A stretch of DNA of 13,999 nucleotides from NCBI GenBank assembly GCA_030611945.1, contig JAUWOV010000048.1, positions 1 to 13,999 on the forward strand, written 5' to 3'. This document shows, piece after piece, positions 1 through 13,999 of this stretch; position 1 is the stretch's first letter; each line of letters begins with the position of its first letter. This DNA is from a bacterium (GTDB taxonomy: Bacteria > JAHJDO01). The notes under the pieces were generated by a model that saw nothing but the letters and a program-made list of their open reading frames with translations, was not told the DNA's origin and made no database searches. The position numbers and the translations under genes were made by a program.

Positions 1-158
1 AATTCCATTCCCAGAGGACCTGTCCAGTAATTAGTTTTCCCGTTTTTTAAAGGTCCCATTGCGGCCTGAATTGTTTCCTCTTCAAAATGGGGCCATTTTG
101 GAAACGATTCTTTGCAAACAGGTTCTCCGTCGTTTATTGCAAGTTGTTCTTTACTCAT
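1..158 (-). CDS. DegT/DnrJ/EryC1/StrS-family aminotransferase, N-terminal fragment (runs off left edge)
   Basis: Only the first 52 codons are in the window; the gene continues to the left. The start is the ATG at 158-156, preceded by a clear AAGGAGAAG ribosome binding site lying in the 15-base gap after the ceramidase-like gene. The peptide opens MSKEQLAINDGEPV, then a proline/aromatic stretch (FPKWPHFEEE) and NYWTGPLGMEF. This is the usual N-terminus of sugar aminotransferases of the DegT/DnrJ/EryC1/StrS family, PLP enzymes that transaminate keto-sugars, with the YWTG turn near the cofactor site. The PLP lysine and the rest of the fold lie outside the window, so a catalytically dead or dehydratase-type member cannot be excluded. 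It is probably cotranscribed with the ceramidase-like gene. Family assignment rests on a short peptide. Confidence 0.72.
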   Translation of the reverse strand, partial: MSKEQLAINDGEPVCKESFPKWPHFEEETIQAAMGPLKNGKTNYWTGPLGME

Positions 159-173
159 ATGTTCTTCTCCTTG

Positions 174-1493
174 TTATTTGTGTAGTGTGTTTAGCAGTTC
201 TATTGCTTTGTCTCTAAGTATATAACCGGTTTCCGGTTTAAAAGCTGCGCCTGTTGATTCATATCCTCCCTGCTGGAAAGATTCCTTTCTGGCAATGTAT
301 CCCAGATAATCTCCGCCTAGTTCTATAATGAAAGTTTTTGAGAAGGGAGATTTTTTCTTTATTTCAAGACCGAACTCTACGAAATACTCACATGGTACAG
401 CTACAAATGCTGTATCTCCTATTCTGATAGCAGTAATTTCTGCAATATATTCATCTTTGCCCAGTCCCTGAGCTCTGAGCAATCCCAGACTTGAGAGAAA
501 TTCTTCCATGTGCCCCGGCCAATCTGCGTCTGTAGAATTTGTTCTGCTTGATACTATTTCTCTTGCCTTCCTGATAGAATTCCTATCATAATCTTTTAGG
601 GGAAGTTTTGCTTGGATTCTTCCTCCTGAAACAGTAACATCATCTCTAAATTTCTCCATTCTTGCAACAGTTTTAATTACTTCGAAACCGAGAACTCTTC
701 CTATTCGTGAAGCATGTTCAAAGTATTCGTATTTTTTATCAGGATCCCTCTTTACATTTGCATGATTGATATTTCCCATAGCGCCTGAAGTATAAACAAA
801 TCCTATATCTCCTATCTGCTTGGCAATAACATCATTCATAACTCCCGGAAAATCCGCCGATACCTCATATCCGTCAACAGTGTCCGTGTGCAAAGCAAAA
901 TTAACTATAAGCCCATCAATTTTATTATAATCATCTCCAAAAGCCAGAACTCCCAGTTCAGGGTCAATTGGTCCGACAGGTTTAACAATATCAGGATTTC
1001 CCATACCTGGATTTGTTATGACTTTTCCATTCTTCATTATAAATCTGCGGTTAAAGGAAACGTTATGCTCTTCTCCGCTCAAGCACGCTACTTTTGTTTC
1101 TCTGGCTGAGTGAAAAGCATCAACTGCTGCAGACGCTATTCTGGAAGGTAATGCTGTAAGCCATTTTTCATCCAGTCCGTGTGTAATTCCAGAGTCTTTT
1201 TTGTATACTAATGAAGGACCTGTATGTGTATGTGTTGCGCAGATAATGATGTTTTTATCAGGAATTCCGGTTTCTTTTACTATAAGTTCTCTTGCAAGCT
1301 CAACTTCCTGCTTTTCTATTCCAATCAAATCGCAGGAAACCATGCAAACTTTGTTTTTACCGTCATTGAGTACTGCCGCTTTGGCAAACAGTCTGTCATG
1401 AATTTTTTTAGCTATTCTTACATCAAAGTGCCCCTGAAGATAACATCCAACAGGTGGGGTAATGTCTATCTTTGAAAATCCTGCTTTTAGCAT
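174..1493 (-). CDS. Neutral/alkaline ceramidase-like protein (PF04734-type), cytoplasmic
   Basis: This 439-residue protein resembles the N-terminal catalytic domain of neutral/alkaline non-lysosomal ceramidases, zinc enzymes that hydrolyse amide bonds. Visible landmarks are the family opening AGFSKIDITPPVG (residues 4-16), the metal-binding motif HTHTGP (88-93), a second histidine in NFALHTDTV (His202) and a glycine-rich segment TSGAMGNINH (235-244). It has no signal peptide and lacks the C-terminal domain of true secreted ceramidases, so sphingolipid ceramide is an unlikely substrate. Bacterial relatives of this size often sit in carbohydrate-use loci, and hydrolysis of an N-acyl or similar bond on a small molecule is my inference. 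The ATG at 1493 follows a GGGAG ribosome binding site about 10 bases upstream. The gene is transcribed away from the GntR-type regulator from its own promoter and is followed after 15 bases by the DegT-type aminotransferase. Confidence 0.82.
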   Translation of the reverse strand: MLKAGFSKIDITPPVGCYLQGHFDVRIAKKIHDRLFAKAAVLNDGKNKVCMVSCDLIGIEKQEVELARELIVKETGIPDKNIIICATHTHTGPSLVYKKDSGITHGLDEKWLTALPSRIASAAVDAFHSARETKVACLSGEEHNVSFNRRFIMKNGKVITNPGMGNPDIVKPVGPIDPELGVLAFGDDYNKIDGLIVNFALHTDTVDGYEVSADFPGVMNDVIAKQIGDIGFVYTSGAMGNINHANVKRDPDKKYEYFEHASRIGRVLGFEVIKTVARMEKFRDDVTVSGGRIQAKLPLKDYDRNSIRKAREIVSSRTNSTDADWPGHMEEFLSSLGLLRAQGLGKDEYIAEITAIRIGDTAFVAVPCEYFVEFGLEIKKKSPFSKTFIIELGGDYLGYIARKESFQQGGYESTGAAFKPETGYILRDKAIELLNTLHK

Positions 1494-1534
1494 CTTATTT
1501 CTCCCTGAATTGTCATTATTTTTATGGACTTTAA

Positions 1535-1562
1535 TTTATAAAAAAAACACCGTATATGTCAA
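1535..1562 (-). promoter_or_regulatory. Predicted sigma-70 promoter for the ceramidase-like operon
   Basis: Reading leftward, a perfect -35 TTGACA (1562-1557) is separated by 16 bases from TATAAA (1540-1535). Transcription would start near 1528, about 35 bases before the ATG at 1493. The spacer contains a run of eight T, which may bend the DNA. It lies back to back with the predicted promoter of the regulator gene. Confidence 0.6.
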
Positions 1563-1589
1563 TGAAAAACTTTTAATCAAAATATTTTC

Positions 1590-1619
1590 TTGACGTGAAT
1601 TATAAATACATGATATCAT
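1590..1619 (+). promoter_or_regulatory. Predicted promoter of the GntR-type regulator and downstream operon
   Basis: The -35 is TTGACG (1590-1595). The -10 is TATCAT (1614-1619) with an 18-base spacer and an extended TGn element (TG at 1611-1612). The -10 region is also part of a perfect 10-bp palindrome, ATGATATCAT (1610-1619). Predicted transcription start is about 1625-1627, inside the inverted repeat at 1623-1649. That places the likely operator directly over the start site. Confidence 0.55.
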
Positions 1620-1622
1620 TCA

Positions 1623-1649
1623 AAAGTGGTTAGGTCAACCAGCCACTTT
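1623..1649 (+). promoter_or_regulatory. Operator-like inverted repeat in the divergent control region
   Basis: The outer arms AAAGTGG (1623-1629) and CCACTTT (1643-1649) are perfect 7-bp complements. Inside lies a second, slightly offset inverted repeat, TGGTT (1627-1631) with AACCA (1637-1641). TGGT/ACCA half-sites are common for GntR-family regulators. The position on the predicted start of the regulator transcript fits autorepression. It could also form an mRNA 5' hairpin just ahead of the ribosome binding site (GAGG, around 1660). Function is inferred. Confidence 0.5.
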
Positions 1650-1671
1650 GATAAAGTTTGAGGATATTTGA

Positions 1672-2766
1672 ATGGTTAGTTATTTAAAAAACTCGATACC
1701 TAAATATAAACGGCTAAAAGACATCCTCGGCGAGGAAATTAAGAATGGTAAATTTAAGGAAAGTGACAAGTTTTATTCAGAAAGAGAGCTGGTTGGGAAA
1801 TTTAATATCAGCAGAAACACGGCTGTAGAATCGCTCAGGATACTTGAGAGCCAAGGACTTATAGAGCGTATTCAGGGGAAAGGTACATTTGTAAGCAATA
1901 AAAAACTGTCTAACAACACAAAGAATATTGCTGTTGTGGTAAGTGAAATATTTGAGACAAGACATTCTGCAAGTATTTCTCTTATACAATCAATGGAAAA
2001 AGTTTTAGATAAGGCAGGTTATCATATTCTATTGATAAGCCTTGAACATTACTCGAAAAAGCAACAGATTGACAATCTTATTTCTCAAAAAAAGGCAGAT
2101 GCATTTATCTTAGTCTCTGTACCAGGCGAGGTTCATAAATGGTTTGCTTCCAAAAACGTGCCGTTTGTTATTATCGGTAATACCTTATTGAAAAACGCTC
2201 CTTATATAAATGTGGATTATTTTAAGCTTGTAAACAAAGGGATATCTTATCTTCTAGAATTAGGACACAGAAAGATAGGATTTGTAATTGGTGATAAGGA
2301 AAATATTGGAGTGATGATAGGAATAAGAGGATACGAGAATGCATACAACAGTCTTGGACTGGCAGCTCAAAGCAGATACATAATGACAGATATTAGCAAT
2401 GCCTCTAATGTAATTAAGGCAACAAACAATCTTATTGATGCTGGAGCAACAGCTATTTTGTTTGATATATATATGTTTAATTACGCAGTTGATGAAATCG
2501 GGGATAGGGGATTAGGTGTTCCAGAAGATATATCACTTATGGTTGCTACTCAGAAGATTAGAAAAATAAACGCAAAAAATTCATTACTTACAGGCTTTGA
2601 AGTTGATATAAACAAAACTTATCGTCTTGCAGGAAAGATGATAATTGATTTAATTAATGGCAAGGAAGTTAAAAGCAAGACAGTACCTTATAAGTTTTTT
2701 GAGGGCAATAGTTGCAAGAAATTAGGCACAGAGGCACAAAGCAGTAGAGGCACAAAGAATGAATAA
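1672..2766 (+). CDS. GntR-family transcriptional regulator with LacI/GalR-type sensor domain
   Basis: This 364-residue repressor-type protein has an N-terminal GntR winged helix (about residues 10-76), including the recognition region ERELVGKFNISRNTAVESLR and the wing GLIERIQGKGTFVS. A LacI/GalR-type periplasmic-binding-protein fold follows (about 84-350), with the typical LLELGHRKIGFVIGD segment and the GVPEDIS segment. This AraR-like architecture usually binds a sugar or sugar derivative and releases DNA on binding. The gene heads the rightward operon and sits opposite the ceramidase-like gene, with an inverted repeat at its predicted transcription start, so it probably controls both directions. 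The start ATG at 1672 has a GAGG ribosome binding site. The last residues (KLGTEAQSSRGTKNE) are encoded by a short tandem repeat and look like a late extension. Its stop overlaps the next gene by 8 bases. Confidence 0.88.
   Translation: MVSYLKNSIPKYKRLKDILGEEIKNGKFKESDKFYSERELVGKFNISRNTAVESLRILESQGLIERIQGKGTFVSNKKLSNNTKNIAVVVSEIFETRHSASISLIQSMEKVLDKAGYHILLISLEHYSKKQQIDNLISQKKADAFILVSVPGEVHKWFASKNVPFVIIGNTLLKNAPYINVDYFKLVNKGISYLLELGHRKIGFVIGDKENIGVMIGIRGYENAYNSLGLAAQSRYIMTDISNASNVIKATNNLIDAGATAILFDIYMFNYAVDEIGDRGLGVPEDISLMVATQKIRKINAKNSLLTGFEVDINKTYRLAGKMIIDLINGKEVKSKTVPYKFFEGNSCKKLGTEAQSSRGTKNE
2722..2757 (+). repeat. Short tandem repeat (AGAGGCACAAAG units) at the end of the regulator gene
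   Basis: The 12-base unit AGAGGCACAAAG occurs at 2730-2741 and again at 2746-2757, a 16-base period, with a third partial unit (TAGGCACAG) starting at 2723. It encodes the C-terminal GTEAQSSRGTK tail of the regulator and also supplies the AGAGG ribosome binding site for the next gene at 2759. The style resembles GGCACAGAGGCACAAAG-type junk repeats I associate with uncultured bacterial genomes. That resemblance is from memory. Confidence 0.65.
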
Positions 2767-3211
2767 AATAAAAAAGAATGTTCATAAAGATTTTCATGGC
2801 GCGATGAGTTTTGGCTTGAAGTATGTGTATGATAGTTATGGAGACAATGGCGTTAAGGAATATTTTAAAGAACTAGCCAATACAGTTTATTCTCCGTTGT
2901 CAAAAGCTCTGCAAAAGAAAGGACTTGGAGAATTAGAAAAGCACTGGAGGAAAATATTTGATCTTGAAGATGCTGATTATGAGCTTTTCTATAAAGATAA
3001 TGTACTTAATCTGAAAATAAACAAATGTCCTGCGATTAGCCATATGAAGAAATTCGGCTATGAGATATTTGAGAAATTCTGCGAGCATTGCAGGATACTT
3101 AATGCTGAAATTTGCAGGAATGCAGGCTGTCAGAGTTCAATAGAATATGATCAGAATAAGGGTAAATGCCTGCAGAAATTCTGGAAAGAGAGAAGGAAGA
3201 CTAAGGTCTAA
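2759..3211 (+). CDS. Conserved cysteine-rich protein of unknown function
   Basis: I cannot name this 150-residue protein. It starts at ATG 2759, overlapping the regulator by 8 bases, so translation is probably coupled. The N-terminal half is helical, with a DFHG motif at residues 11-14. The C-terminal half holds a CPAISHM motif (Cys90, His95), then Cys108 and Cys111 (CEHC), Cys119, Cys124 and Cys137, ending in QKFWKE. Six cysteines in 48 residues of a short cytoplasmic protein suggest a metal or Fe-S site or a redox role. The general layout faintly recalls the L-2-amino-thiazoline-4-carboxylate hydrolase family, but that is weak. There is no signal peptide or membrane segment. The next gene is a truncated paralogue, so the family is duplicated here. 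Position between the regulator and the aldolase ties it to the same pathway. Confidence 0.7.
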   Translation: MNKIKKNVHKDFHGAMSFGLKYVYDSYGDNGVKEYFKELANTVYSPLSKALQKKGLGELEKHWRKIFDLEDADYELFYKDNVLNLKINKCPAISHMKKFGYEIFEKFCEHCRILNAEICRNAGCQSSIEYDQNKGKCLQKFWKERRKTKV

Positions 3212-3216
3212 ATAAA

Positions 3217-3438
3217 ATGATTTCATGTACTGAGTTTATATTAACCTATAATGAATTATTCAAGTTTCTGGATAAAAAAGGCGGCAAGAAGAAGGTTGTA
3301 AACTTCTGGGAAGGGATATCAGATAATTTCCTGCAGAATCTAGAATCTCTTGTAAAAGAAAAGGGAATACAAGGCATGAAGGAATACTGGACTCATACAT
3401 TAACCGAGGAAAATGCAAATTATAAGATGGTTTTATAA
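3217..3438 (+). pseudogene. Truncated paralogue of the preceding cysteine-rich protein (N-terminal half only)
   Basis: The 73-residue product matches the first half of its upstream neighbour. ELFKFLDKKGGKKKVVNFWE aligns with GLKYVYDSYGDNGVKEYFKE, and EKGIQGMKEYWTHTLTEENANYKM aligns with KKGLGELEKHWRKIFDLEDADYEL. It then stops abruptly (VL-stop, TAA at 3436-3438) just where the paralogue continues into its cysteine-rich half. All the conserved cysteines of that half are missing. DapA-family coding sequence begins at the very same place in another frame. A deletion that removed the 3' half of this gene and the start of the aldolase explains both facts. The reading frame itself is clean and has a weak AAGG ribosome binding site, so a half-protein may still be made. 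Confidence 0.65.
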
Positions 3439-4295
3439 CAGCAATAGGAACACCGCTGGATGAAGTGGGCAATCTTGTAAAAGAAAGTTTTAAAAAACAT
3501 ATTAATGACCAGATAAAAGCAAACATCAGCGGAATATTATGTATGGGCACAATGGGAAAACAGGCTACTATCAAAAATAATGTATTTGTTGAGGTGGCTG
3601 AAACAGCAGTTAATTGCATAAACTCTGCTGTGCCCGTGATAGTTGGATGTATGGATAATAGCATTGAAAGAGTAAAGGATAGAATAGAGCTTATCAAAAA
3701 ATTTAAGCTTGATGGAATAGCTCTTACAACACCTTTTTATCACGGCTCAAGCCAGAAGGATTTATTGAGATTTTTTGGAGAAATTGCAGATTATTCTCCT
3801 TTTCCGATTTATCTGTATGATTTACCTCAAGTAACAAAGATAAAGACAGAGATTGATACAGTGATTGAATCAAGTAAGCACACGAATATTGCGGGTATCA
3901 AGTGTTCGCATGACCCTGCTTATGTAAGGAAACTCCACGACCATTTTAAAGAAAATCATGATTTTGATGTTATAAGCGCGCAGGTTGATTTAATGGATGT
4001 ATTCTATAGATATGGAATAAAGCTTCAACTTGACGGCATTTTTTGTTTGTTCCCAGAATGGATGAAAGAATTAAAAGCATCTCTTGATAAAGAGGATTGG
4101 GGTAAAGCAAAACTTGTTCAGCAAAGAATAACCTCTTTTAGAGATAAGCTGATTAAATTGGATGTATTTCCTGCTTTCAGCTATGGAATGAATCTGCTGG
4201 GATATGAAGGCAACTTTGCGCCTGATTATTGTGAACTTGGGAAGGAAGGCAAAGACAAAGTTTGTGAGTTGATGAAGGAATATGGATTAACTTAG
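3426..4295 (+). CDS. DapA / N-acetylneuraminate-lyase-family aldolase, start codon lost or frameshifted
   Basis: This is a class I (Schiff-base) aldolase or dehydratase of the dihydrodipicolinate synthase/N-acetylneuraminate lyase superfamily, acting on 2-keto acids. Numbering from the first available start, GTG 3465 (276 residues), the Schiff-base lysine is Lys146 in IAGIKCSHD and the catalytic tyrosine is Tyr118 in PIYLYDLP, with the classical 28-residue spacing. The loop that is GTTGE in DapA reads GTMGK here. The conserved first strand (GFITAIGTPLDEV) is present upstream in the same frame from 3426-3464, but it has no ATG, GTG or TTG and is preceded by a stop (TAA, 3423-3425). One extra base after ATG 3427 would restore a normal N-terminus. 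Starting at GTG 3465 would delete strand 1 of the barrel. Lysine biosynthesis is unlikely in this context; cleavage of a keto-deoxy sugar acid fits better. Confidence 0.75.
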   Translation, partial: DGFITAIGTPLDEVGNLVKESFKKHINDQIKANISGILCMGTMGKQATIKNNVFVEVAETAVNCINSAVPVIVGCMDNSIERVKDRIELIKKFKLDGIALTTPFYHGSSQKDLLRFFGEIADYSPFPIYLYDLPQVTKIKTEIDTVIESSKHTNIAGIKCSHDPAYVRKLHDHFKENHDFDVISAQVDLMDVFYRYGIKLQLDGIFCLFPEWMKELKASLDKEDWGKAKLVQQRITSFRDKLIKLDVFPAFSYGMNLLGYEGNFAPDYCELGKEGKDKVCELMKEYGLT

Positions 4296-4326
4296 AAAAT
4301 TAAATTCATAACATTGGGAAAATAAA

Positions 4327-5436
4327 ATGTTACTCAGAAACTTGCAAACAGGTATTATTTATCAGAATGCAAAGCCTCATGTGAAGAGTATTCACGCCTA
4401 TTTCCCCTCAGTAGTACTAATGGATAACGGAGAAATGCTGACTTCTGTAGTTTTAGGAGAAGCTTTTGAATCCGTCAATTGCCATACTTATGTTGCTCGA
4501 TCCAAAGACAACGGTGAAACATGGCATATGGAGGGACTCATTTATCCAGGAACAATGGATAGAACAACCTCCGACAGCTGCAGGCTGACTGCTTTCCCAA
4601 AAGGTGAAGTCGTTGCGTTTATTGTCAGAAGTGATCGGACTATGCATCAGGATGAAGGACTTACTAATCACGAAAATCTGGGATTCGTGCCTACAGAACT
4701 TCTACTGTTACGTTCATCGGATTACGGACATACATGGAGTAAACCAAGCTCTCTGACTCCTCCTTTAGTCGGACCCTGCTTTGAGCTGTGCTGTCCAATA
4801 ATTCCGCTTAAGGATGGTCGGTGGATATTGCCTACTCAAACCTGGCCTGATTGGAACTGTAACTGTCCGAATGGAATCAGAATGGTAGCTTTTGTTTCGC
4901 ACGATCGGGGTAGAACTTGGCCTGAATACATGGATGTGATGAAAGAGATTGAAGGTCGTGTCTTCTTTTGGGAATCAAAAATAGTAGAACTGCCTGATGA
5001 TAGACTACTTGCGATTGCTTGGGTATATGATGATATAGTTTCCTTAGACAGAACCAATCAATACGCTTTGAGTGAAGATGGCGGGAAAACATGGTCAACA
5101 CCGCTTTCAACAGGACTGCATGGACAGACACTGACACCGTTTTTGTGCGATGATGGTCGGATTTTGTGTATATACCGAAGAATGGATAAACCTGGGTTAT
5201 GGGCAAATATTTCTCGTTTGGAGAAGAATGTCTGGGTTAACGAAGCTTGTGAACCCCTGTGGGGCGAAGAGACGACCTGTCTGGCTACAACAGGAAAAGA
5301 TATGGCGCCAAATTTCAATGCATTAAAATTTGGCGCTCCATGTATTACCAGGCTTGCAGACGGCACAATATTCATTGCTTTCTGGTGTTATGAAGATTGC
5401 ATATCTGTTATCCGTTGGTTCAAGTTTGCCATTTGA
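4327..5436 (+). CDS. Asp-box (BNR) sialidase-like six-bladed beta-propeller protein
   Basis: The 369-residue protein has four well-formed Asp boxes (S-x-D-x-G-x-T-W) at residues 59-66, 130-137, 191-198 and 249-256. This repeat defines the sialidase/neuraminidase-type propeller. I do not see a FRIP-type arginine motif near the N-terminus: the equivalent place reads HAYFPSVVLMDNG. Hydrolysis of sialic acid is therefore not assured, and the protein belongs more safely to the broad sialidase-like family common in uncultured bacteria. The C-terminus (NFNALKFGAPC...AFWCYEDCISVIRW) is typical of that broad group. There is no signal peptide, so the protein is probably cytoplasmic and acts on an imported molecule. 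The ATG at 4327 has only a weak GGGA ribosome binding site. It follows the aldolase by 31 bases. A long palindrome lies in its 3' end. Confidence 0.82.
   Translation: MLLRNLQTGIIYQNAKPHVKSIHAYFPSVVLMDNGEMLTSVVLGEAFESVNCHTYVARSKDNGETWHMEGLIYPGTMDRTTSDSCRLTAFPKGEVVAFIVRSDRTMHQDEGLTNHENLGFVPTELLLLRSSDYGHTWSKPSSLTPPLVGPCFELCCPIIPLKDGRWILPTQTWPDWNCNCPNGIRMVAFVSHDRGRTWPEYMDVMKEIEGRVFFWESKIVELPDDRLLAIAWVYDDIVSLDRTNQYALSEDGGKTWSTPLSTGLHGQTLTPFLCDDGRILCIYRRMDKPGLWANISRLEKNVWVNEACEPLWGEETTCLATTGKDMAPNFNALKFGAPCITRLADGTIFIAFWCYEDCISVIRWFKFAI
5305..5336. repeat. 32-bp near-perfect palindrome within the Asp-box gene
   Basis: The left half-site is GCGCCAAATTTCAATG (5305-5320). The right half, 5321-5336, is its reverse complement except for one position (C5316 faces A5325). 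Allowing a 2-base bulge, the arms extend by ATGG/CCAT to about 5302-5341. It encodes residues APNFNALKFG, and the antisense strand reads the same peptide. No T-run follows, so it is not a standard terminator. Confidence 0.85.
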
Positions 5437-5505
5437 AAAGATAGAGATTTTTATAAAAGCAATAAAAGGCGCAGAGGTCTGAAGTTTGGATTGGAAAAGG
5501 AAAAT

Positions 5506-6477
5506 ATGAATCCGGTTGTGAAAAAGAAGAAAGCACTCGTAGTTGGATGTGGTTCTATAGGTCAAAGGCATGCAAGGCTTTTAGGTATGAGAGAGGATGT
5601 TTGTCTCTCAGTATGCGATCCTATTGAAACCAATCTTATAAATACCTGTAGGCAGACAAAAGTCGATAAACGATTCAAAGATTATAGAAAAGCCTTGGAA
5701 GAATGTCCTGAATTTGTTTTTATTTGTACTCCTGAAAGTTTGCATGCTGCAATAGCAATAGCAGCTTTGGAGTCTGGAGTTCATGTCTTCTGTGAAAAGC
5801 CACTAGCAGATAATTTAAGTTCAGCAGGAAAAATTATAGATGCAGTAACCAAATCAAATAAGCTTTTTGCCGTTGGATATGTACTGCGTTATACAAAGGC
5901 ATACAGAACTATTAAGTCTTTGTTAGATAAAAAGATAATAGGGAATGTGGTAGGAGGACAGGTAAGTCTTGGGGCGTATGAAACACTAATAAACGCTAAA
6001 ACAGACTGTTATTTGAATCAACCATGGAGTTTGATATTAACTTATACACATGAGATTGATTACTTACGCTGGTTTCTTGGACCGGTAAGTAGAACAGTGG
6101 GAATGCACGCTAAATTGGGAGAGGTGGAGAAAAAAGTCGATCCAAACGTAGTTGGCTGTGTTCTCCAGTTTGATACAGGAGCTATTATAACTCTTTATAT
6201 GGATTATATCCAATCTCCGGGACAACGTTCTATTATGCTTATAGGTGATAAAGGGAAAATCTTCTACTCGACAATGGAAAATCTAGTTGTGGTTTATAAG
6301 GACAAGGCAGAACCGTTTAAAACGATAGATGTGGCGGAAGAACGCGACAACTCTTTTATAGAAGAACACAATCAATTTTTTAGAGCATCTAAAAATCAAA
6401 TTAATTCAATTGTTGATGCAAATGACGCTTTTGAAACTTTAAAAACTGCATATTCGTTAATTGATTCTTTAAAATAA
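5506..6477 (+). CDS. Gfo/Idh/MocA-family NAD(P)-dependent oxidoreductase
   Basis: This family oxidises or reduces hydroxyl groups on sugars and cyclitols. I chose ATG 5506 (323 residues) because AAGGA lies five bases upstream. A TTG at 5491 would add five residues but has poor spacing to any ribosome binding site. Landmarks are the Rossmann motif VVGCGSIG (Gly14, Gly16, Gly19), TPESLH (75-80), the EKPL motif with Lys98, and THEIDYLRW, where His182 and Asp185 match the family's catalytic region. The C-terminus (EEHNQFFRASKNQ...) is the usual end of the family, and the length is slightly short but normal. It lies 69 bases after the Asp-box gene in the same operon. Its likely job is to convert a sugar hydroxyl to a ketone for the downstream aminotransferase, or the reverse. 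That role is inferred from context. Confidence 0.88.
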   Translation: MNPVVKKKKALVVGCGSIGQRHARLLGMREDVCLSVCDPIETNLINTCRQTKVDKRFKDYRKALEECPEFVFICTPESLHAAIAIAALESGVHVFCEKPLADNLSSAGKIIDAVTKSNKLFAVGYVLRYTKAYRTIKSLLDKKIIGNVVGGQVSLGAYETLINAKTDCYLNQPWSLILTYTHEIDYLRWFLGPVSRTVGMHAKLGEVEKKVDPNVVGCVLQFDTGAIITLYMDYIQSPGQRSIMLIGDKGKIFYSTMENLVVVYKDKAEPFKTIDVAEERDNSFIEEHNQFFRASKNQINSIVDANDAFETLKTAYSLIDSLK

Positions 6478-6501
6478 ATTGCGTTTTAATGAATGAAATA
6501 A

Positions 6502-6654
6502 ATGCATATTGAAGAAATAGAGGATTTTTTAAGAGCTTTAAGAGGAGAAAAATCTTATCCCTATACTTTTAGAGAAGAAAAAACTATAGTGGATATTCTA
6601 AAAGCGATTGATGAGATTGCTAAAACAGGAAAAACTATGGAGGTGAAGTTATGA
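6502..6654 (+). pseudogene. C-terminal remnant of a second Gfo/Idh/MocA oxidoreductase (50 residues)
   Basis: This short frame encodes MHIEEIEDFLRALRGEKSYP, continuing to residue 50 with TIVDILKAIDEIAKTGKTMEV. It matches the last helix and strand of Gfo/Idh/MocA proteins: an acidic E-x-x-x-F stretch, a variable loop, an alanine/isoleucine helix and a final xxxV. It aligns with IEEHNQFFRASKNQ of the intact gene just upstream but is not a direct copy. There is no Rossmann domain and no good ribosome binding site, and a stop (TAA 6499-6501) lies immediately ahead of the ATG. The end overlaps the aminotransferase start as ATGA (6651-6654). Its 3' end carries the GGAGGTG ribosome binding site of that gene, which may be why the fragment persists. 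A genuine small protein is possible but less likely. Confidence 0.6.
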
Positions 6655-7961
6655 AGGGCAAGGGGCAGAAACTTTGGAATAGGGCAAAGAAAATTATTCC
6701 TGGTGGAAATCAGCTGTTATCAAAACGAAGTGAACGGTTTTTACCTGACCAATGGCCAGCTTATTATAAAAAGGCAAAAGGGTGTGAGATTTGGGATCTG
6801 GATGGAAATAAGTATATTGATATGAGTATAATGGGAGTATCCTCCTGTATTCTAGGATATGCAGACAATGATGTGAATGAAGCAGTAAAGAATGTGATAG
6901 ATAATGGCTCAATGTCAACATTGAATTCTCCAGAGGGAGTTGAATTAACAGAATTATTGTTAAAACTTCATCCGTGGGCAGGAATGGTTAGATTTGCCAG
7001 AACAGGCGGGGAATCAATGGCAGTGGCTGTTCGGATTGCCCGTGCATATACAAGGAAAGATAAAGTAGCTTTCTGTGGTTATCACGGCTGGCATGATTGG
7101 TATCTTGCTGCGAATTTAGATGATAATAAAAACTTGGACGGACAGCTTCTTCCCGGGTTAGAACCATTAGGCGTTCCAAGATGTCTAAAAGGGACAGCTA
7201 TTCCCTTTACCTATAACAAAATAGATGAATTGAAAAGCATTGTATCCAAAAATAATGACATCGGAGTGATTGTGGTGGAACCGGTAAGACATTATGAGCC
7301 TGAAGATAATTTTCTTGGAAAGATAAAAGATATAGCAGAGGATATTAATGCTGTGTTAATATTTGATGAGATAACATCCGGTTGGCGGATGAATGTTGGC
7401 GGAGTTCATGAATTATACAATGTCTATCCTGATATAGCAGTCTATGCAAAGGCTATGAGCAATGGTTTTCCGATGGCGGCAATTGTTGGTAAGGAAAAGA
7501 TTATGGACGTGGCTCAAGACAGTTTTATCAGTAGCACCTACTGGACAGAAAGAATAGGTCCTGCTGCAGCCATAACCACCATTAATAAATTAAAGAAAAA
7601 AAATGTGCCTTCCCATTTAATCAAAACAGGGAATTCAATTAAAAAAGGATGGAAGAAATTGGCAGATTCTCATAATTTAAGGATAAAGATTATAGGAATT
7701 CCACCATTGCCTGCATTTGTGTTTGATTATAAAGACTCCCAGGCGCTTATTACTTTATTTACGCAGGAAATGCTAAAGAGAGGATTTTTGGCTTCAGGCG
7801 GTGTTTCTTGCTCTTATAGTCATAAAGAGGAACACATTAAGAAATATTTGGATAGTGTAGATGAAGTGTTCGGAATAATAAAAAAAGCTGTTAAAAATAA
7901 CAATATCCGTAACTTACTTAAAGGACCGATTGCGCATGCAGGATTTAAGAGGTTAACATAG
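6651..7961 (+). CDS. Class III PLP aminotransferase, glutamate-1-semialdehyde aminomutase-like
   Basis: This 436-residue fold-type I PLP enzyme looks like glutamate-1-semialdehyde 2,1-aminomutase but sits in a sugar-type locus. Visible motifs are TGGESMAVAVRIARAYT (118-134), the phosphate and ring-binding region GYHGWHDW (143-150), VVEPVRHYEP (208-217), the cofactor-ring aspartate in IFDEITSGWR (Asp239) and the Schiff-base lysine in YAKAMSNGFP (Lys267). All catalytic residues appear present. It starts at ATG 6651 with a near-ideal GGAGGTG ribosome binding site, overlapping the preceding fragment by 4 bases. No heme pathway genes are nearby, so tetrapyrrole synthesis is improbable. HemL-like homologues of this kind transaminate keto-sugars or small aldehydes in polysaccharide and catabolic clusters. 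Direction (amine removal or addition) is not known. Confidence 0.88.
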   Translation: MKGKGQKLWNRAKKIIPGGNQLLSKRSERFLPDQWPAYYKKAKGCEIWDLDGNKYIDMSIMGVSSCILGYADNDVNEAVKNVIDNGSMSTLNSPEGVELTELLLKLHPWAGMVRFARTGGESMAVAVRIARAYTRKDKVAFCGYHGWHDWYLAANLDDNKNLDGQLLPGLEPLGVPRCLKGTAIPFTYNKIDELKSIVSKNNDIGVIVVEPVRHYEPEDNFLGKIKDIAEDINAVLIFDEITSGWRMNVGGVHELYNVYPDIAVYAKAMSNGFPMAAIVGKEKIMDVAQDSFISSTYWTERIGPAAAITTINKLKKKNVPSHLIKTGNSIKKGWKKLADSHNLRIKIIGIPPLPAFVFDYKDSQALITLFTQEMLKRGFLASGGVSCSYSHKEEHIKKYLDSVDEVFGIIKKAVKNNNIRNLLKGPIAHAGFKRLT

Positions 7962-7971
7962 GGAGAAGCAA

Positions 7972-8757
7972 ATGCATATTAAAGAACTTTTTGATCTGAC
8001 AGGCAAAGTTGCAGTAGTTACAGGCGGGGCAGGATTATACGGCAGGCAGATTGTGGCCGCTCTGGTTGAGGCAAAAGCAAAAGTATATATGGCATCACGA
8101 AATTTAGGGGCTTTAGAGAAACTAGTTTCTAAACACAGAGCATGTGGATATGATGTTACTGCTTTAAAATTAGATTTATCCGATGAAAAATCTATTTTAA
8201 CTCTGAGAGATAAAATCTTAAAACAAAATAAGAGGATAGATATTTTAGTTAATAACGCAGTTCTTCGTCCAATGAAAAAAGGCTATCATGATGATGCCTC
8301 ATTATTTGCCGAGAGCATGAAGGTAAATGCAACAGGTTTATTCATTATAACGCGGGCAATCGGCGATGTCATGGGAGAACAGCAGGAAGGATCTATTATT
8401 AATATTGGCTCTATTCAGGGCATGATAGGTCCGGATGCAACTATATATAAAAATACTGACATGAGCGGATGGTATCCTGATTATTTTTTCCATAAAGGAG
8501 GAATGATTAACTTTACAAGATTTATTGCCGGTTATTACGGCAGTAAGGGTGTTAGATGCAATTGCATAGCTCCCGGCGGATTTTTAACTGACAAGACGCC
8601 GAAAGCTTTTGTTAAACAGTATAGCGATAGAACCTTTTTGGGACGTTTGGCTAATGATACAGATATAAAGGGAATTGTTGCTTTTCTTGCATCTGATGCC
8701 TCGCAATATATTACAGGAACAAATATTCCCGTAGATGGGGGATATACTGCAAAATAA
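7972..8757 (+). CDS. Short-chain dehydrogenase/reductase (classical SDR)
   Basis: The 261-residue protein has the full classical SDR set. The cofactor motif is TGGAGLYG (17-24), with LVNNA at 92-96, the catalytic serine in INIGSIQG (Ser147) and the YxxxK pair in YFFHK (Tyr171, Lys175). The PG motif follows at 201-202, and the usual C-terminus is TGTNIPVDGGY. The loop before the catalytic tyrosine (about residues 154-170) is longer than in simple gluconate 5-dehydrogenase-like enzymes. The start ATG 7972 has GGGAG seven bases ahead and follows the aminotransferase by 10 bases. It is the last gene of the rightward operon and its stop abuts the stop of the convergent TPR gene. NAD(P)-linked oxidation or reduction of a sugar or keto-acid hydroxyl is the likely role; the exact substrate is unknown. 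Confidence 0.88.
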   Translation: MHIKELFDLTGKVAVVTGGAGLYGRQIVAALVEAKAKVYMASRNLGALEKLVSKHRACGYDVTALKLDLSDEKSILTLRDKILKQNKRIDILVNNAVLRPMKKGYHDDASLFAESMKVNATGLFIITRAIGDVMGEQQEGSIINIGSIQGMIGPDATIYKNTDMSGWYPDYFFHKGGMINFTRFIAGYYGSKGVRCNCIAPGGFLTDKTPKAFVKQYSDRTFLGRLANDTDIKGIVAFLASDASQYITGTNIPVDGGYTAK

Positions 8758-9639
8758 TCAATTTCTCCATTGCCTTTGGTAATAGGCTATGCCATGATTA
8801 TTGGAAGTATCCGATAGTTTTGGGTTGTTGCTGATAGCGAATTTCATTTGAGCTATAGCTTGTTCCTGTTTTCCCTGTTTTAAATAAACCAGTCCCAGAT
8901 TATAATAAGCAGAATAAAATTCCGGGTCGTATTTTATAGCAAGTTTTAATTGCTTCTCAGCTTGTGCCAGCTTATCTTCCCGCAGATATACAGCGCCTAA
9001 GTTGTTGTAAGCAATAACATGTTTAGGATCATACTTTACAGCGAGTTTATATTGATCTTCTGCTTTTTCTAATCTACCCTGTTTCCAATAAATAACTCCA
9101 AGATTGTTGTAACTGTCAGAATATTGAGGATCATACTTGATGGCGAGCTTTAGGTTTTTTATAGCACCCGGAGTATTATTTATATCAAAATATAGTCTGG
9201 CGAGACTGAAATATGCCCAAGTATATTTAGTGTCATAGACAATGGCAAGTTTGTAGTGCTTTGCCATTTCTTCAAGTCGTCCAAGCTTTTTATAAACATC
9301 CGTTAAACAATCATAAACCTTGATATATTTGGGATTATATTTGATAGCAAGCGAGTACTGAGATATAGCTTCGTCCGGTTTATTTTGTTCATCATATGCT
9401 TTTCCCAGCTTATAATAAGCTTCCACATACACAGGGTTATATTTGACGGCAAGTTTGTAGCGTTTGACAGCTTTTTTAATTTCTTTATTATCAACATGTT
9501 TTTCTGCAAGGATGAAGTGCTTTTCTGCTTTTTTTCTATTTATATCCGACAGCTGAAAAAGCTCTGTCTCTGATTGAGAATAAGAATACATAAAAGAGGA
9601 AAATAGAAAAAATATTGCAAATATAGTGGTTGTTTTCAT
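8758..9639 (-). CDS. Secreted tetratricopeptide-repeat (TPR) protein
   Basis: The 293-residue protein starts with a signal peptide (lysine at 2, hydrophobic core 6-17, likely cleavage near Ser21). Seven 34-residue TPR units follow, ending at about residues 69, 103, 137, 171, 205, 239 and 273, then an incomplete eighth. Most units end in the same phrase (KLAIKYDP or close variants), so the repeats have been homogenised or recently duplicated. TPR arrays are protein-binding scaffolds; no partner or catalytic domain is visible. It should be periplasmic or outer-membrane associated. The ATG at 9639 directly follows the TAG of the phosphofructokinase gene with no gap, and there is only a weak purine-rich ribosome binding site inside that gene's end, so translational coupling is likely. 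Its role in the glycolytic operon is unclear. Confidence 0.85.
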   Translation of the reverse strand: MKTTTIFAIFFLFSSFMYSYSQSETELFQLSDINRKKAEKHFILAEKHVDNKEIKKAVKRYKLAVKYNPVYVEAYYKLGKAYDEQNKPDEAISQYSLAIKYNPKYIKVYDCLTDVYKKLGRLEEMAKHYKLAIVYDTKYTWAYFSLARLYFDINNTPGAIKNLKLAIKYDPQYSDSYNNLGVIYWKQGRLEKAEDQYKLAVKYDPKHVIAYNNLGAVYLREDKLAQAEKQLKLAIKYDPEFYSAYYNLGLVYLKQGKQEQAIAQMKFAISNNPKLSDTSNNHGIAYYQRQWRN

Positions 9640-10812
9640 CTATCTTTTTAATTTTCCCATTTCAGGTAATTTCCCTACTAAAGGTCTTGCATATGCAAGA
9701 AACTTTTCCGTTACATTGTTGCCTTTCTCATTCATATATTCTCTGGGCATACTTCGTGTGTTTTTGGCAACAGAATGAAGAGGCGTTATGAAAAGTCCGC
9801 TTGCTTTTATTGCAACGCTTCCATCTTTAAGACCGTTTTCCACAGCGCTCTTTACTGCGAATGCTCCAACATGTCTTGCTTCTTCTGCATCTACTTCGGA
9901 AACGATGCCGGGAAAACATCTCTGCAAATAACCGAATGTATCAGCTCTTGCTCTAAGTTTGCCGGGAATATTTTGCTTAATAATATCTATCAGCATATCT
10001 CCAAGCCCTCCGGAGCCGCTTAATTGCACATTCCCATGAGCATCTTTAACTCCTGATTGAAAAATGGAATTGCCTTCCTCATCACTTATACCTTCGGAAA
10101 CTGCTATCTGACATCGTCCCAGTCTGTTGTAAACATCTTTAACATCCTGTATGAATTTTTTCTTTGAAAATGGAATTTCAGGGACGTAAATCAGGTGCGG
10201 ACCGTCATTCTCATGCTGTCTTCCTAGAGCGGAAGCGGCAGTTAAAAATCCTGCGTGTCTTCCCATAATGATGTTAACCTTAATTCCCGGGATAGCCCCG
10301 TTATCAAGATTGTCACCCATTATTGCCATTGCAACAAATTTTGCCGCAGAGCCATAACCCGGACAGTGATCTGTAACGAGCAGATCATTGTCAATAGTCT
10401 TTGGTATATGGTAAGACGTTAGGTCATAGCCTGACTTGTTTGCAATTTGATTTATAATGTCCGCTGTTTCCGCTGAATCATTACCTCCGATATAAAAGAA
10501 ATATCTGATATTATTCTTCTTGAATATCTCAACTATTTTTTCGCATTCCTCTTCAGTTGGTTTTTTTCTTACGGATCCCAGCGCGGCAGATGGTGTATTG
10601 GCTACTTTTTCAAGGTTTGATAAGTCCTGTGCCCCTAAATTAATAAAATTCTCATCAAGTAGTCCCTTTACGCCGTGTAATGCGCCGTAAAATTTTTGAA
10701 TTTCAGGATGTTTCCCAGCTTCTATTATTGCGCCAACCAAGCTCTGATTAATAACGCATGTTGGTCCGCCAGACTGACCTATGACGGCGTTTCCTGTTAC
10801 TTTGCTGCTCAT
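9640..10812 (-). CDS. Pyrophosphate-dependent 6-phosphofructokinase
   Basis: This 390-residue group II-type phosphofructokinase phosphorylates fructose 6-phosphate, most likely with pyrophosphate. The donor signature is clear. GGNDS (109-113) carries aspartate where ATP enzymes have glycine (GGDGS), and PKTIDND (137-143) carries lysine where ATP enzymes have glycine. These are the two accepted PPi markers. Asparagine in place of the usual first aspartate of GGDDS is slightly unusual. MGRHAG (183-188) and CPGYGSAAK (150-158) are also present. PPi enzymes work reversibly, so the protein may serve glycolysis and gluconeogenesis. ATG 10812 has a TAGGAG ribosome binding site. It sits 17 bases after the transketolase gene and directly before the TPR gene. 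PPi-PFKs can also phosphorylate sedoheptulose 7-phosphate, which would link it to transketolase. Confidence 0.9.
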   Translation of the reverse strand: MSSKVTGNAVIGQSGGPTCVINQSLVGAIIEAGKHPEIQKFYGALHGVKGLLDENFINLGAQDLSNLEKVANTPSAALGSVRKKPTEEECEKIVEIFKKNNIRYFFYIGGNDSAETADIINQIANKSGYDLTSYHIPKTIDNDLLVTDHCPGYGSAAKFVAMAIMGDNLDNGAIPGIKVNIIMGRHAGFLTAASALGRQHENDGPHLIYVPEIPFSKKKFIQDVKDVYNRLGRCQIAVSEGISDEEGNSIFQSGVKDAHGNVQLSGSGGLGDMLIDIIKQNIPGKLRARADTFGYLQRCFPGIVSEVDAEEARHVGAFAVKSAVENGLKDGSVAIKASGLFITPLHSVAKNTRSMPREYMNEKGNNVTEKFLAYARPLVGKLPEMGKLKR

Positions 10813-10829
10813 TGCATGCTCTCCTATGT

Positions 10830-12827
10830 TTATTTTTCTATTATATCCAACGCTTTCTTATATACATTGTCGGCAGTAAAACCGAATTTTTTTGCTAATA
10901 ATTCATACGGCGCAGAAGCCCCAAATTCATCAATTCCAAGCACTTTCCCATCTAATCCAGCGTATTTATACCATCCTGCAGTCGAACCGGCTTCAACGAC
11001 TAATCTCCGCCTGCATAATGATGGAATAACTTTTTCCATATATGATCCGGATTGTGCTTCAAATATTTCCACGCTTGGTATATTTACAAGTCTTACATTG
11101 TGTCCTTCCTTATTCAGACGCTCTGCTGCTTCCATGCAAATGCTTACTTCAGAACCGGAAGCAATAATAACAAGTTCTGGTACGCTGGACTTACTATCTA
11201 TTAGCACATATGCTCCATTAGAAAGATTTTTTGCTGACGGATATATCTTCCTGTCAATTGCAGAAAGTTTTTGCCTTGTTAGAAGAATAGCAGTTGGTCC
11301 GTTTTTATTTTTGAGAGTCTCTATCCATGCAGTAGACGTTTCAGACGCGTCAGCCGGTCTTATTACTGTTAAGTTTGGTATCAATCGAAGGGATGCTGCT
11401 TGTTCAATTGGTTCATGTGTCGCACCGTCTTCTCCGACAAAAATACTGTCATGAGTAAAAACATAAATTACCTGCTGTTTCATAATAGCTGCAAGTCTTA
11501 TAGAAGGCTTCATATAATCTGAGAACACAAAAAAAGTAGAGCAATAGGGAATAATGCCGCCAAAAACAGCCATGCCATTTACAACCGCTCCCATGCAATG
11601 TTCTCTTATCCCAAAATGCATGTTGCGTCCGCTAAATTTTCCTCTGTTTATGGATTCGTATTTTTTTAGTATTGTCTTTGTTGATGGAGCAAGATCAGCT
11701 GAACCGCCAATGAGAAAAGGAACTTTCTCTGCAATAGCCTGCATTACTTTACCAGCAGCATTTCGTGTTGCAATAGGTTCGTTAAAGCTGGGTAAATCAT
11801 CTGCTATATTTTTAGGGATTTCTTTATTCAACCATTTGTTCAGGTTTTCTGTTTTTTGTGGATATTTTGTTTTATATTCTTCAAATTTGTTTTTCCATTC
11901 CTTATATACTGAAAGTTTTTTCTCATTACATCTCTTGAAGATTTCCTTTGTTTCTTCAGGTATATAAAAAGCAGGTTCAAGAGGACATCCGAGATTTTGC
12001 TTGGTCAGTTTTACTTCTTCTTCTCCAAGAGGTTCACCGTGCGCAGATGCGCAGTCCTGTTTATTAGGGGATCCTTTGCCTATATGAGTTCGTCCGATAA
12101 TCAAAGTCGGCTTATTTTTTTCTTTTTGCCCTAGCTCAATAGCTTTTGCAATTTCATTCGGATTATACGGGTCAATTTTTATTACTTGCCAGTCATATGC
12201 TTTAAAGCGTTTCCCTACATCTTCACTGAAAGCGATAGAAGTATCACCTTCAATAGTAATGTGATTATCATCATAGAAGTATATAATGTTTCCAAGCCCA
12301 AGATGTCCCGCAAAAGATGCCGCCTCTGCGCTAATACCTTCCATCATATCTCCATCGGTTACTATGCCGTAAACATAAGAATCAAAGAGTTTAATTTCAT
12401 CCGTATTAAACCTGTTTTCAAAGATTCTTTCCGATATTGCCATACCAACACCGTTTCCAAATCCCTGTCCGAGAGGACCGGTTGTTGTATCAACTCCCGG
12501 AGTTATACCGTATTCAGGATGTCCGGGAGTCTTGCTTTCCCACTGCCTGAAATTTTTAAGTTCTTCAAGTGATAAGTCAAACCCGCTCAAATGAAGCAAT
12601 GAGTAAAGAAGCGTTGACCCATGTCCGCCGGAAAGAACAAATCTATCTCTGTTTATCCACGTAATATCTTTAGGGTTGTATCTTAAAAATCTTGTCCAGA
12701 CTACATACGCATAATCCGCAACTCCCATTGGAAGCCCAGGGTGCCCGGAATTGGCTTTTTGCACAGCATCCACTGAGAGCATTTTTATTGCATTTATTGT
12801 AAGAGCATCATTTTTATCAAACTGCAT
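10830..12827 (-). CDS. tkt: Transketolase
   Basis: The 665-residue length is that of a full bacterial transketolase, a thiamine-diphosphate enzyme moving two-carbon units between pentose, tetrose and heptose phosphates. N-terminal PP domain: SGHPG (27-31), GGHGS (67-71) and the ThDP/metal motif DGDMMEG (158-164) with a partner asparagine in YDDNH. The position before DGD is Thr rather than the usual Gly. SAHGEP (261-266) marks the substrate loop. Pyr domain: GGSADL (374-379), FGIREH (405-410) and VGEDGATHEP (464-473), which holds the likely cofactor-activating glutamate. The C-terminal domain is complete. The ATG at 12827 has a strong AAGGAGA ribosome binding site and a predicted promoter just upstream. 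It heads the leftward operon tkt, PPi-phosphofructokinase, TPR protein. Confidence 0.95.
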   Translation of the reverse strand: MQFDKNDALTINAIKMLSVDAVQKANSGHPGLPMGVADYAYVVWTRFLRYNPKDITWINRDRFVLSGGHGSTLLYSLLHLSGFDLSLEELKNFRQWESKTPGHPEYGITPGVDTTTGPLGQGFGNGVGMAISERIFENRFNTDEIKLFDSYVYGIVTDGDMMEGISAEAASFAGHLGLGNIIYFYDDNHITIEGDTSIAFSEDVGKRFKAYDWQVIKIDPYNPNEIAKAIELGQKEKNKPTLIIGRTHIGKGSPNKQDCASAHGEPLGEEEVKLTKQNLGCPLEPAFYIPEETKEIFKRCNEKKLSVYKEWKNKFEEYKTKYPQKTENLNKWLNKEIPKNIADDLPSFNEPIATRNAAGKVMQAIAEKVPFLIGGSADLAPSTKTILKKYESINRGKFSGRNMHFGIREHCMGAVVNGMAVFGGIIPYCSTFFVFSDYMKPSIRLAAIMKQQVIYVFTHDSIFVGEDGATHEPIEQAASLRLIPNLTVIRPADASETSTAWIETLKNKNGPTAILLTRQKLSAIDRKIYPSAKNLSNGAYVLIDSKSSVPELVIIASGSEVSICMEAAERLNKEGHNVRLVNIPSVEIFEAQSGSYMEKVIPSLCRRRLVVEAGSTAGWYKYAGLDGKVLGIDEFGASAPYELLAKKFGFTADNVYKKALDIIEK

Positions 12828-12865
12828 CTCTGTCTCCTTGGTTTTTCGATTAAAAAACTATTCGA

Positions 12866-12894
12866 AATGTATCAAATTTTTGTTGATTTTGCAA
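12866..12894 (-). promoter_or_regulatory. Predicted promoter of the transketolase operon
   Basis: Reading leftward, the -35 TTGCAA (12894-12889) is followed by a 17-base spacer and the -10 TACATT (12871-12866), with an extended TG two bases upstream (TGaTACATT). The predicted start near 12860 leaves about a 30-base leader before the ATG at 12827. Match quality is moderate. Confidence 0.45.
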
Positions 12895-12921
12895 AACAAT
12901 AAATCACATGTGCTCTCTGGA

Positions 12922-12945
12922 GTAGGGGAGGAGCTTGCCCCTCCC
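12922..12945. repeat. GC-rich hairpin repeat downstream of holA
   Basis: GTAGGGGAGG (12922-12931) is followed by AGCTTGCC and then CCTCCC, so GGGAGG (12926-12931) pairs with CCTCCC (12940-12945). It is strikingly GC-rich against its AT-rich flanks. The pattern GTAGGGG...CTTG...CCCC recalls a dispersed REP-like hairpin seen in many uncultured bacterial genomes. In the holA direction no T-run follows, so termination would be weak. In the other direction a seven-T run lies about 14 bases beyond the stem. Confidence 0.55.
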
Positions 12946-12950
12946 AATAA

Positions 12951-13999
12951 TTAATTGTTTTTTTGTCTTTTGCAAATCCCGATAATAAGCAGCTCCAAAG
13001 CCAGTTTTTGGGGAACTTCACCTGTTTTTATAGACACCTCTGTTTCAAACAATTTTTTAATATCGGCTATTAGCTCTTCTTTTTGAAATTTTAGGCTTTG
13101 CTGGGCGATTCTGAAGATTAGATAAGGATGTTGTCCTGAGAGCTTCTTTGAAGCAGAACTATATGTTTTCTGATCATAGTATCCTCTTCTAACTATATCC
13201 TCAGGAATGTCTCCTTTCTCAATAAGTATCTTGGCTTGCAATAACAGCCTGATTCTTTTTGTCAGCATAGGAACAAGGCTATAGCCGGAGTTTTTAGTGC
13301 GAGAGAATTCTTCAAGAAGTTTTAAGGCTCTTGTAATGTTTTTCTCTGCAACGGCATCAGACATAGCAAACGGCGCGTATTCTATTGATTTAGGAACAAG
13401 TATATTTATGTCATTCTCTGTAATATTATCTTCGTCTTTGCAATAAAGCTCTAATTTCTTAAGTTCATTTATTATCTGTCTGAGATTCACACCTGTTAAA
13501 GACAGCAGATATTCAAAGGCAATAGGAGTGAGTTTCTTGCCGCTCTTCTTTAGCTTTAACTGCGCAAATTCATATGCTTGATCTCTATCTGATTTTTTGT
13601 TTTCCTTAAAAGCTGGAAATTCAATTACTTCTCCAAGTTTTTTACCCGCTTTTTTAGCAATTAAGATCACATAAGTATTATCAGGTATTTTGCTGTCTAT
13701 ATTTTTGCCGAATTCTTCTGACTTTTTTTCTATCAGATGGTCGCACTCCTTAATCCAAATAACTCGTTTAAGTCCAAGCAGAGAAGGAGTTTTTATCGCA
13801 GACATAATGCTCTTTGTATCTGTGTCATCAGCATGTATTATTTCCAGTCCGAACTCCTTCTGACCTTCGGGTAAAAGTATTTCAATAATCTTTTTAGCAG
13901 TATCCTCTACAAGGTAGCTCTCTCCGCCAAAAATAAGAAATAAATTAAATGTATCTCCATTTTTGATTTTTTTGATCAGATTGGATTGGTTACTCAGTC
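12951..13999 (-). CDS. holA: DNA polymerase III delta subunit (clamp loader), 5' end beyond window
   Basis: The delta subunit opens the sliding clamp as part of the clamp loader. The frame stays open from the TAA at 12953-12951 to the right edge: 348 residues, close to the family's usual 330-350, so only a few N-terminal residues should be missing. An ATG at 13805 is an internal methionine. Upstream in frame come NLFLIFGGESYLVEDTAKKI, the degenerate P-loop region of delta, and then IIHADDTDTKSIM, running into SLLGLKRVIWIKECDHL. AAA+ domain 1 is followed by the helical lid (VNLRQIINELKKLELYCKDE is the typical central motif) and the C-terminal collar domain with LVPMLTKRIRLLLQAK. It is followed by the hairpin repeat and the transketolase promoter, so cotranscription with tkt is uncertain. 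Confidence 0.88.
   Translation of the reverse strand, partial: LSNQSNLIKKIKNGDTFNLFLIFGGESYLVEDTAKKIIEILLPEGQKEFGLEIIHADDTDTKSIMSAIKTPSLLGLKRVIWIKECDHLIEKKSEEFGKNIDSKIPDNTYVILIAKKAGKKLGEVIEFPAFKENKKSDRDQAYEFAQLKLKKSGKKLTPIAFEYLLSLTGVNLRQIINELKKLELYCKDEDNITENDINILVPKSIEYAPFAMSDAVAEKNITRALKLLEEFSRTKNSGYSLVPMLTKRIRLLLQAKILIEKGDIPEDIVRRGYYDQKTYSSASKKLSGQHPYLIFRIAQQSLKFQKEELIADIKKLFETEVSIKTGEVPQKLALELLIIGICKRQKNN

Follow-up and report, generated by a model that had tools for sequence, protein, structure and literature searches.

We identified a lesion spanning two adjacent genes in a 13,999-nucleotide stretch of bacterial DNA (assembly GCA_030611945.1, contig JAUWOV010000048.1, positions 1–13,999; hereafter the window). 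The region 3217–3470 very probably records, judging from sequence comparison, a 242-bp deletion that took away the 3′ half of a small gene, here called B, together with the start of the following DapA-family aldolase gene, leaving both genes probably broken. The observation on which this reading is built, made in a first-pass annotation of the same DNA, is real and was confirmed. The locus is a case of ordinary recent pseudogenisation, or gene decay, read from a metagenome assembly, and as such a clean example of one small deletion disabling two closely spaced genes.

All features of the locus lie on the forward strand. The operon-like run opens with a GntR/LacI-type regulator recognized with Pfam (GntR HTH plus Peripla_BP_3; 1672–2766), which is followed by small gene A (2759–3211), an intact 150-codon partner of B with a predicted V4R/TRAPP-like fold. 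The truncated B occupies 3217–3438: ATG 3217 opens a frame of 73 codons that stops at TAA 3436–3438, and codons 1–71 are homologous to the intact 142-codon B of the sister genome G004. As the first-pass annotation had claimed, the alignment of this frame with its upstream paralogue A covers the first half of the latter; full-length A and B proteins share about 21–23% identity. Its further statement that the small frame ends exactly where DapA sequence begins needed refinement: homology to B does run up to the junction, through residue 71 (M, 3427–3429), but the terminal VL results from out-of-frame reading of aldolase DNA. A frame scan showed that the aldolase segment indeed lacks a start of its own and is closed upstream by TAA 3423–3425, beyond which the frame is open over 3426–4295 (289 sense codons plus the stop). 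No ATG, GTG or TTG precedes 3465 in this frame, and GTG 3465–3467, named before as the nearest start, is the first canonical one; it leaves 276 codons and removes 20 of 296 residues, the first barrel strand among them. Near-start codons ahead of it are limited to ATA 3435, ATA 3444 and CTG 3456. Annotated automatically, the contig would thus appear to encode a 73-aa protein, which is misleading, and an aldolase trimmed at its N terminus.

The intact arrangement was found by comparing five genomes of the genus, among which G004 alone, besides the window's own genome, has the locus. Its contig C18 (L003/L044) carries regulator, A, B and aldolase in the same order as the window, and the regulator is well conserved (88.7% amino acid identity to the L044 gene). 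In G004, B has 142 codons and a GTG start (L003 1050–1478), and the aldolase has 296 codons and its own ATG (L003 1480–2370), one base after the B stop. The blastn alignment fell into two collinear segments, window 2140–3429 with L003 1–1262 (88% identity) and window 3425–4294 with L003 1500–2369 (87% identity). The 242 bp absent from the window (L003 1263–1504) encode B residues 72–142, the B stop and the first seven codons of the aldolase including its ATG (MTHKRFR). A relative therefore carries both the full second paralogue and the normal ATG, as the proposal of a single deletion removing the two had predicted, and chance is excluded because a single gap separates two stretches that each show 87–88% nucleotide identity to the sister genome. 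A single-base error after ATG 3427, raised earlier as an alternative, cannot by itself explain 242 missing bases.

At the junction (window 3425–3430), the five bases AGATG (window 3425–3429) are common to both BLAST segments. The right copy in G004 reads AGACG, not AGATG, and the literal match to G004 is only 1 bp; a 5-base repeat would need an ancestral GAT Asp codon where G004 has GAC, which is plausible, and the T in the window may derive from the left copy. Microhomology of at least 5 bp is expected at ~1% of random breakpoint pairs in the region. From these alignments, microhomology at the deletion breakpoints is likely but not proven, and the deletion probably occurred across a short direct repeat. 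The locus shares with pseudogenes formed by short-repeat deletion one continuous gap, flanks collinear with an intact relative and, probably, a few shared junction bases, and differs from them in nothing notable; here one gene happened to lose its end in the same event in which its neighbour lost its start.

The spacing of the two genes suggests how one event could affect both. Because a single base separates the B stop from the aldolase ATG in G004, the aldolase in this arrangement is probably translated by coupling to B, so that one deletion would hit both. Deprived of the alpha/beta sheet and of most conserved cysteines, B would be inactive, and the aldolase, having no normal start, would not be efficiently translated. 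Since the remnant carries no other damage, the event would be recent.

What is left of the aldolase is otherwise intact. The DHDPS profile of Pfam (PF00701) matched residues 2–284 of the open stretch (E 6.5e-29; 101 bits vs a curated cut-off of 22.1), and alignment with solved DHDPS structures placed the Schiff-base Lys at codon 3900–3902 and the Tyr of the LYDLP motif at 3816–3818 with no stop in the frame, in line with the earlier claim that both catalytic residues are kept. In these respects, the protein is a regular member of the DHDPS/NAL (DapA) superfamily. It differs in lacking a normal start, in carrying GTMGK (window 3546–3560) where DHDPS enzymes have GTTGE, and in scoring below the cut-off of all named equivalogs (DapA, NanA, KdgD and KDG aldolase); against TIGR00674, the equivalog for 4-hydroxy-tetrahydrodipicolinate synthase, it reached 104 bits vs a cut-off of 206, and the intact G004 copy reached 117. 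The motif and the scores together indicate that it probably acts on a substrate other than those of DapA and NanA. Most neighbouring aldolases of relatives have N termini of normal length, including one that is 47% identical (L054).

Between the window and G004, dN/dS was 0.154 (95% 0.09–0.25) for the aldolase, 0.067 (0.02–0.17) for the B remnant, 0.18 for A and 0.23 for the regulator. We found neither an excess of amino acid changes nor stops in the 289 aldolase codons, and no relaxation of dN/dS in the aldolase or the B remnant; therefore, either the deletion happened late in relation to the divergence of the two species or the aldolase remains in use. On sequence grounds, dN/dS does not separate these two cases. 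The low values largely reflect the time before the deletion, and they would also be compatible with a gene that still functions.

Continued use would mean that only B was lost and that the aldolase is still made by restarting at ATA 3435–3437, within the ATAA at 3435–3438, or at GTG 3465. The 289 open codons at a dN/dS of 0.154 and the retained Lys and Tyr speak for such a restart, as does the position of the non-canonical ATA, which overlaps the stop of a translated frame and would keep most of strand 1. ATA is, however, a very rare start, GTG 3465 costs the first barrel strand, and dN/dS would be just as low after a recent event, so we regard a restart as rather unlikely. Survival specifically through coupled re-initiation at the AUA overlapping the new stop (AUAA) is distinctly improbable; if true, a single deletion would have turned an out-of-frame remnant into a functional new start.

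The junction could also be an artefact of assembly or library preparation, a chimeric read or a minor variant taken into the consensus while the living population is intact. The assembly is fragmented (119 contigs, 90.9% complete) and the remnant is otherwise undamaged, which speaks for such an origin, but assemblers do not normally join sequences sharing only 1–5 bases, and both flanks are equally diverged from G004, so the junction did not arise by joining to DNA of G004 itself. We consider this origin improbable. A fused B′–aldolase protein made by frameshifting, an alternative raised earlier and taken here as programmed −1 frameshifting, is very improbable: the two frames lie end to end and could be joined by a −1 shift between 3426 and 3438, but the ATG GTT TTA TAA before the stop is not a standard slippery heptamer, the downstream RNA fold is ordinary (z −1.1), and no truncated B was seen in relatives.

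Deletion of the B 3′ half and the aldolase start was also placed in the context of the B family. A scan of genome contigs with the aldolase alone found no relatives. With a profile of six B proteins we obtained 220 relatives and retained 80 loci, in records titled Planctomycetes, Omnitrophota, Latescibacterota, Hydrogenedentota, Armatimonadota, Lentisphaerae, Bathyarchaeota and others. A is also present in 77 of these 80 loci, usually directly upstream; in a sample of 385 genomes taken around the window, matches were found in 11, most of which have A and B together. A search for a second B copy in the window's own genome found none. As B is full-length in all relatives sampled, the truncated B of the window represents the derived state, a polarity that rests on distant relatives, since G004 is the only other genome of the genus with the locus. 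The reading of the 73-residue frame as a normal conserved small protein is next to impossible, even with codons 1–70 conserved at the low dN/dS given above, because closed B frames in the 80 relatives and G004 all have at least 141 residues, none being shorter, which refutes it for the family as sampled.

The predicted model of intact B (pLDDT 92) consists of four N-terminal helices (residues 4–65) followed, from residue 68 on, by an alpha/beta part that contains four strands. According to this model, the remnant would keep the helices only and would have lost all strands of the predicted V4R/TRAPP-like fold. Cysteines 4, 85, 104, 107 and 134 are invariant in 48 aligned B proteins, and four of these five fall in the lost half; C85, C104, H106, C107 and C134, invariant in 48/48, all lie within the lost part.

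For A and B of the window and G004, searches of Pfam and NCBIfam gave no assignment above cut-off, members of the wider A-B family matched the profile libraries only weakly, and no family for the tandem pair was present in the libraries searched. The commonest weak match for both was PF14196 (ATC hydrolase), which had a best E of 0.0008 for A and 0.0027 for B and appeared at E up to 0.1 in 19 of 47 A members and 10 of 49 B members; the window's own A did not match it. Foldseek searches with the A and B models returned TRAPP Bet3, BcsD, MopR/PoxR, YslB and H-NOX structures, with a best E of about 0.002 for each model, and VIA-align gave Z 6–8.6 for B against BcsD, Bet3, MopR and H-NOX; both sets of scores are moderate and do not prove kinship. 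Searching solved structures by sequence with the B profile yielded weak, unrelated matches only. MetOD1 has been described as similar to H-NOX, V4R and ATC hydrolase domains, with a cluster of three conserved cysteines common to MetOD1, V4R and ATC hydrolase (PMC5847659), and, by analogy, the conserved B cysteines fit this cluster. A and B may resemble the ATC hydrolase/V4R/MetOD1/H-NOX group (PF14196, PF02830, PF18546, PF07700) in predicted fold and, for B, in the Cys cluster; they differ in that the PF14196 matches are apparently sub-threshold and the window B is without its Cys-bearing half.

DapA-family genes adjoin A-B in 33 of the 80 loci, and other neighbours include short-chain dehydrogenases (15), GFO/IDH (13), BNR (13) and ceramidase-like (12) genes. 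The pair likely belongs to a set of genes for the catabolism of a sugar-like compound. A literature search for papers connecting ATC hydrolase with DapA clusters found nothing relevant to the A-B pair. As a wider lead, A-B is a conserved, unannotated and unstudied tandem pair in many phyla, often located beside DapA-family aldolases and sugar-type oxidoreductases. In the window, the aldolase is followed at 4327–8757 by genes for a BNR-repeat protein, a GFO/IDH oxidoreductase, a HemL-like aminotransferase and an SDR, homologues of which accompany A-B in distant phyla (e.g., L046), as in a patchwork catabolic module. Homology between the window and G004 is lost shortly before the regulator on the left and exactly at the aldolase stop on the right (L044 1–196, L003 3193–3429). 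Pfam gave no match for the 77-aa right-hand piece at the G004 end; by eye, the ends of the G004 module resemble remnants of integrase or transposase genes, and the module from regulator to aldolase may be mobile.
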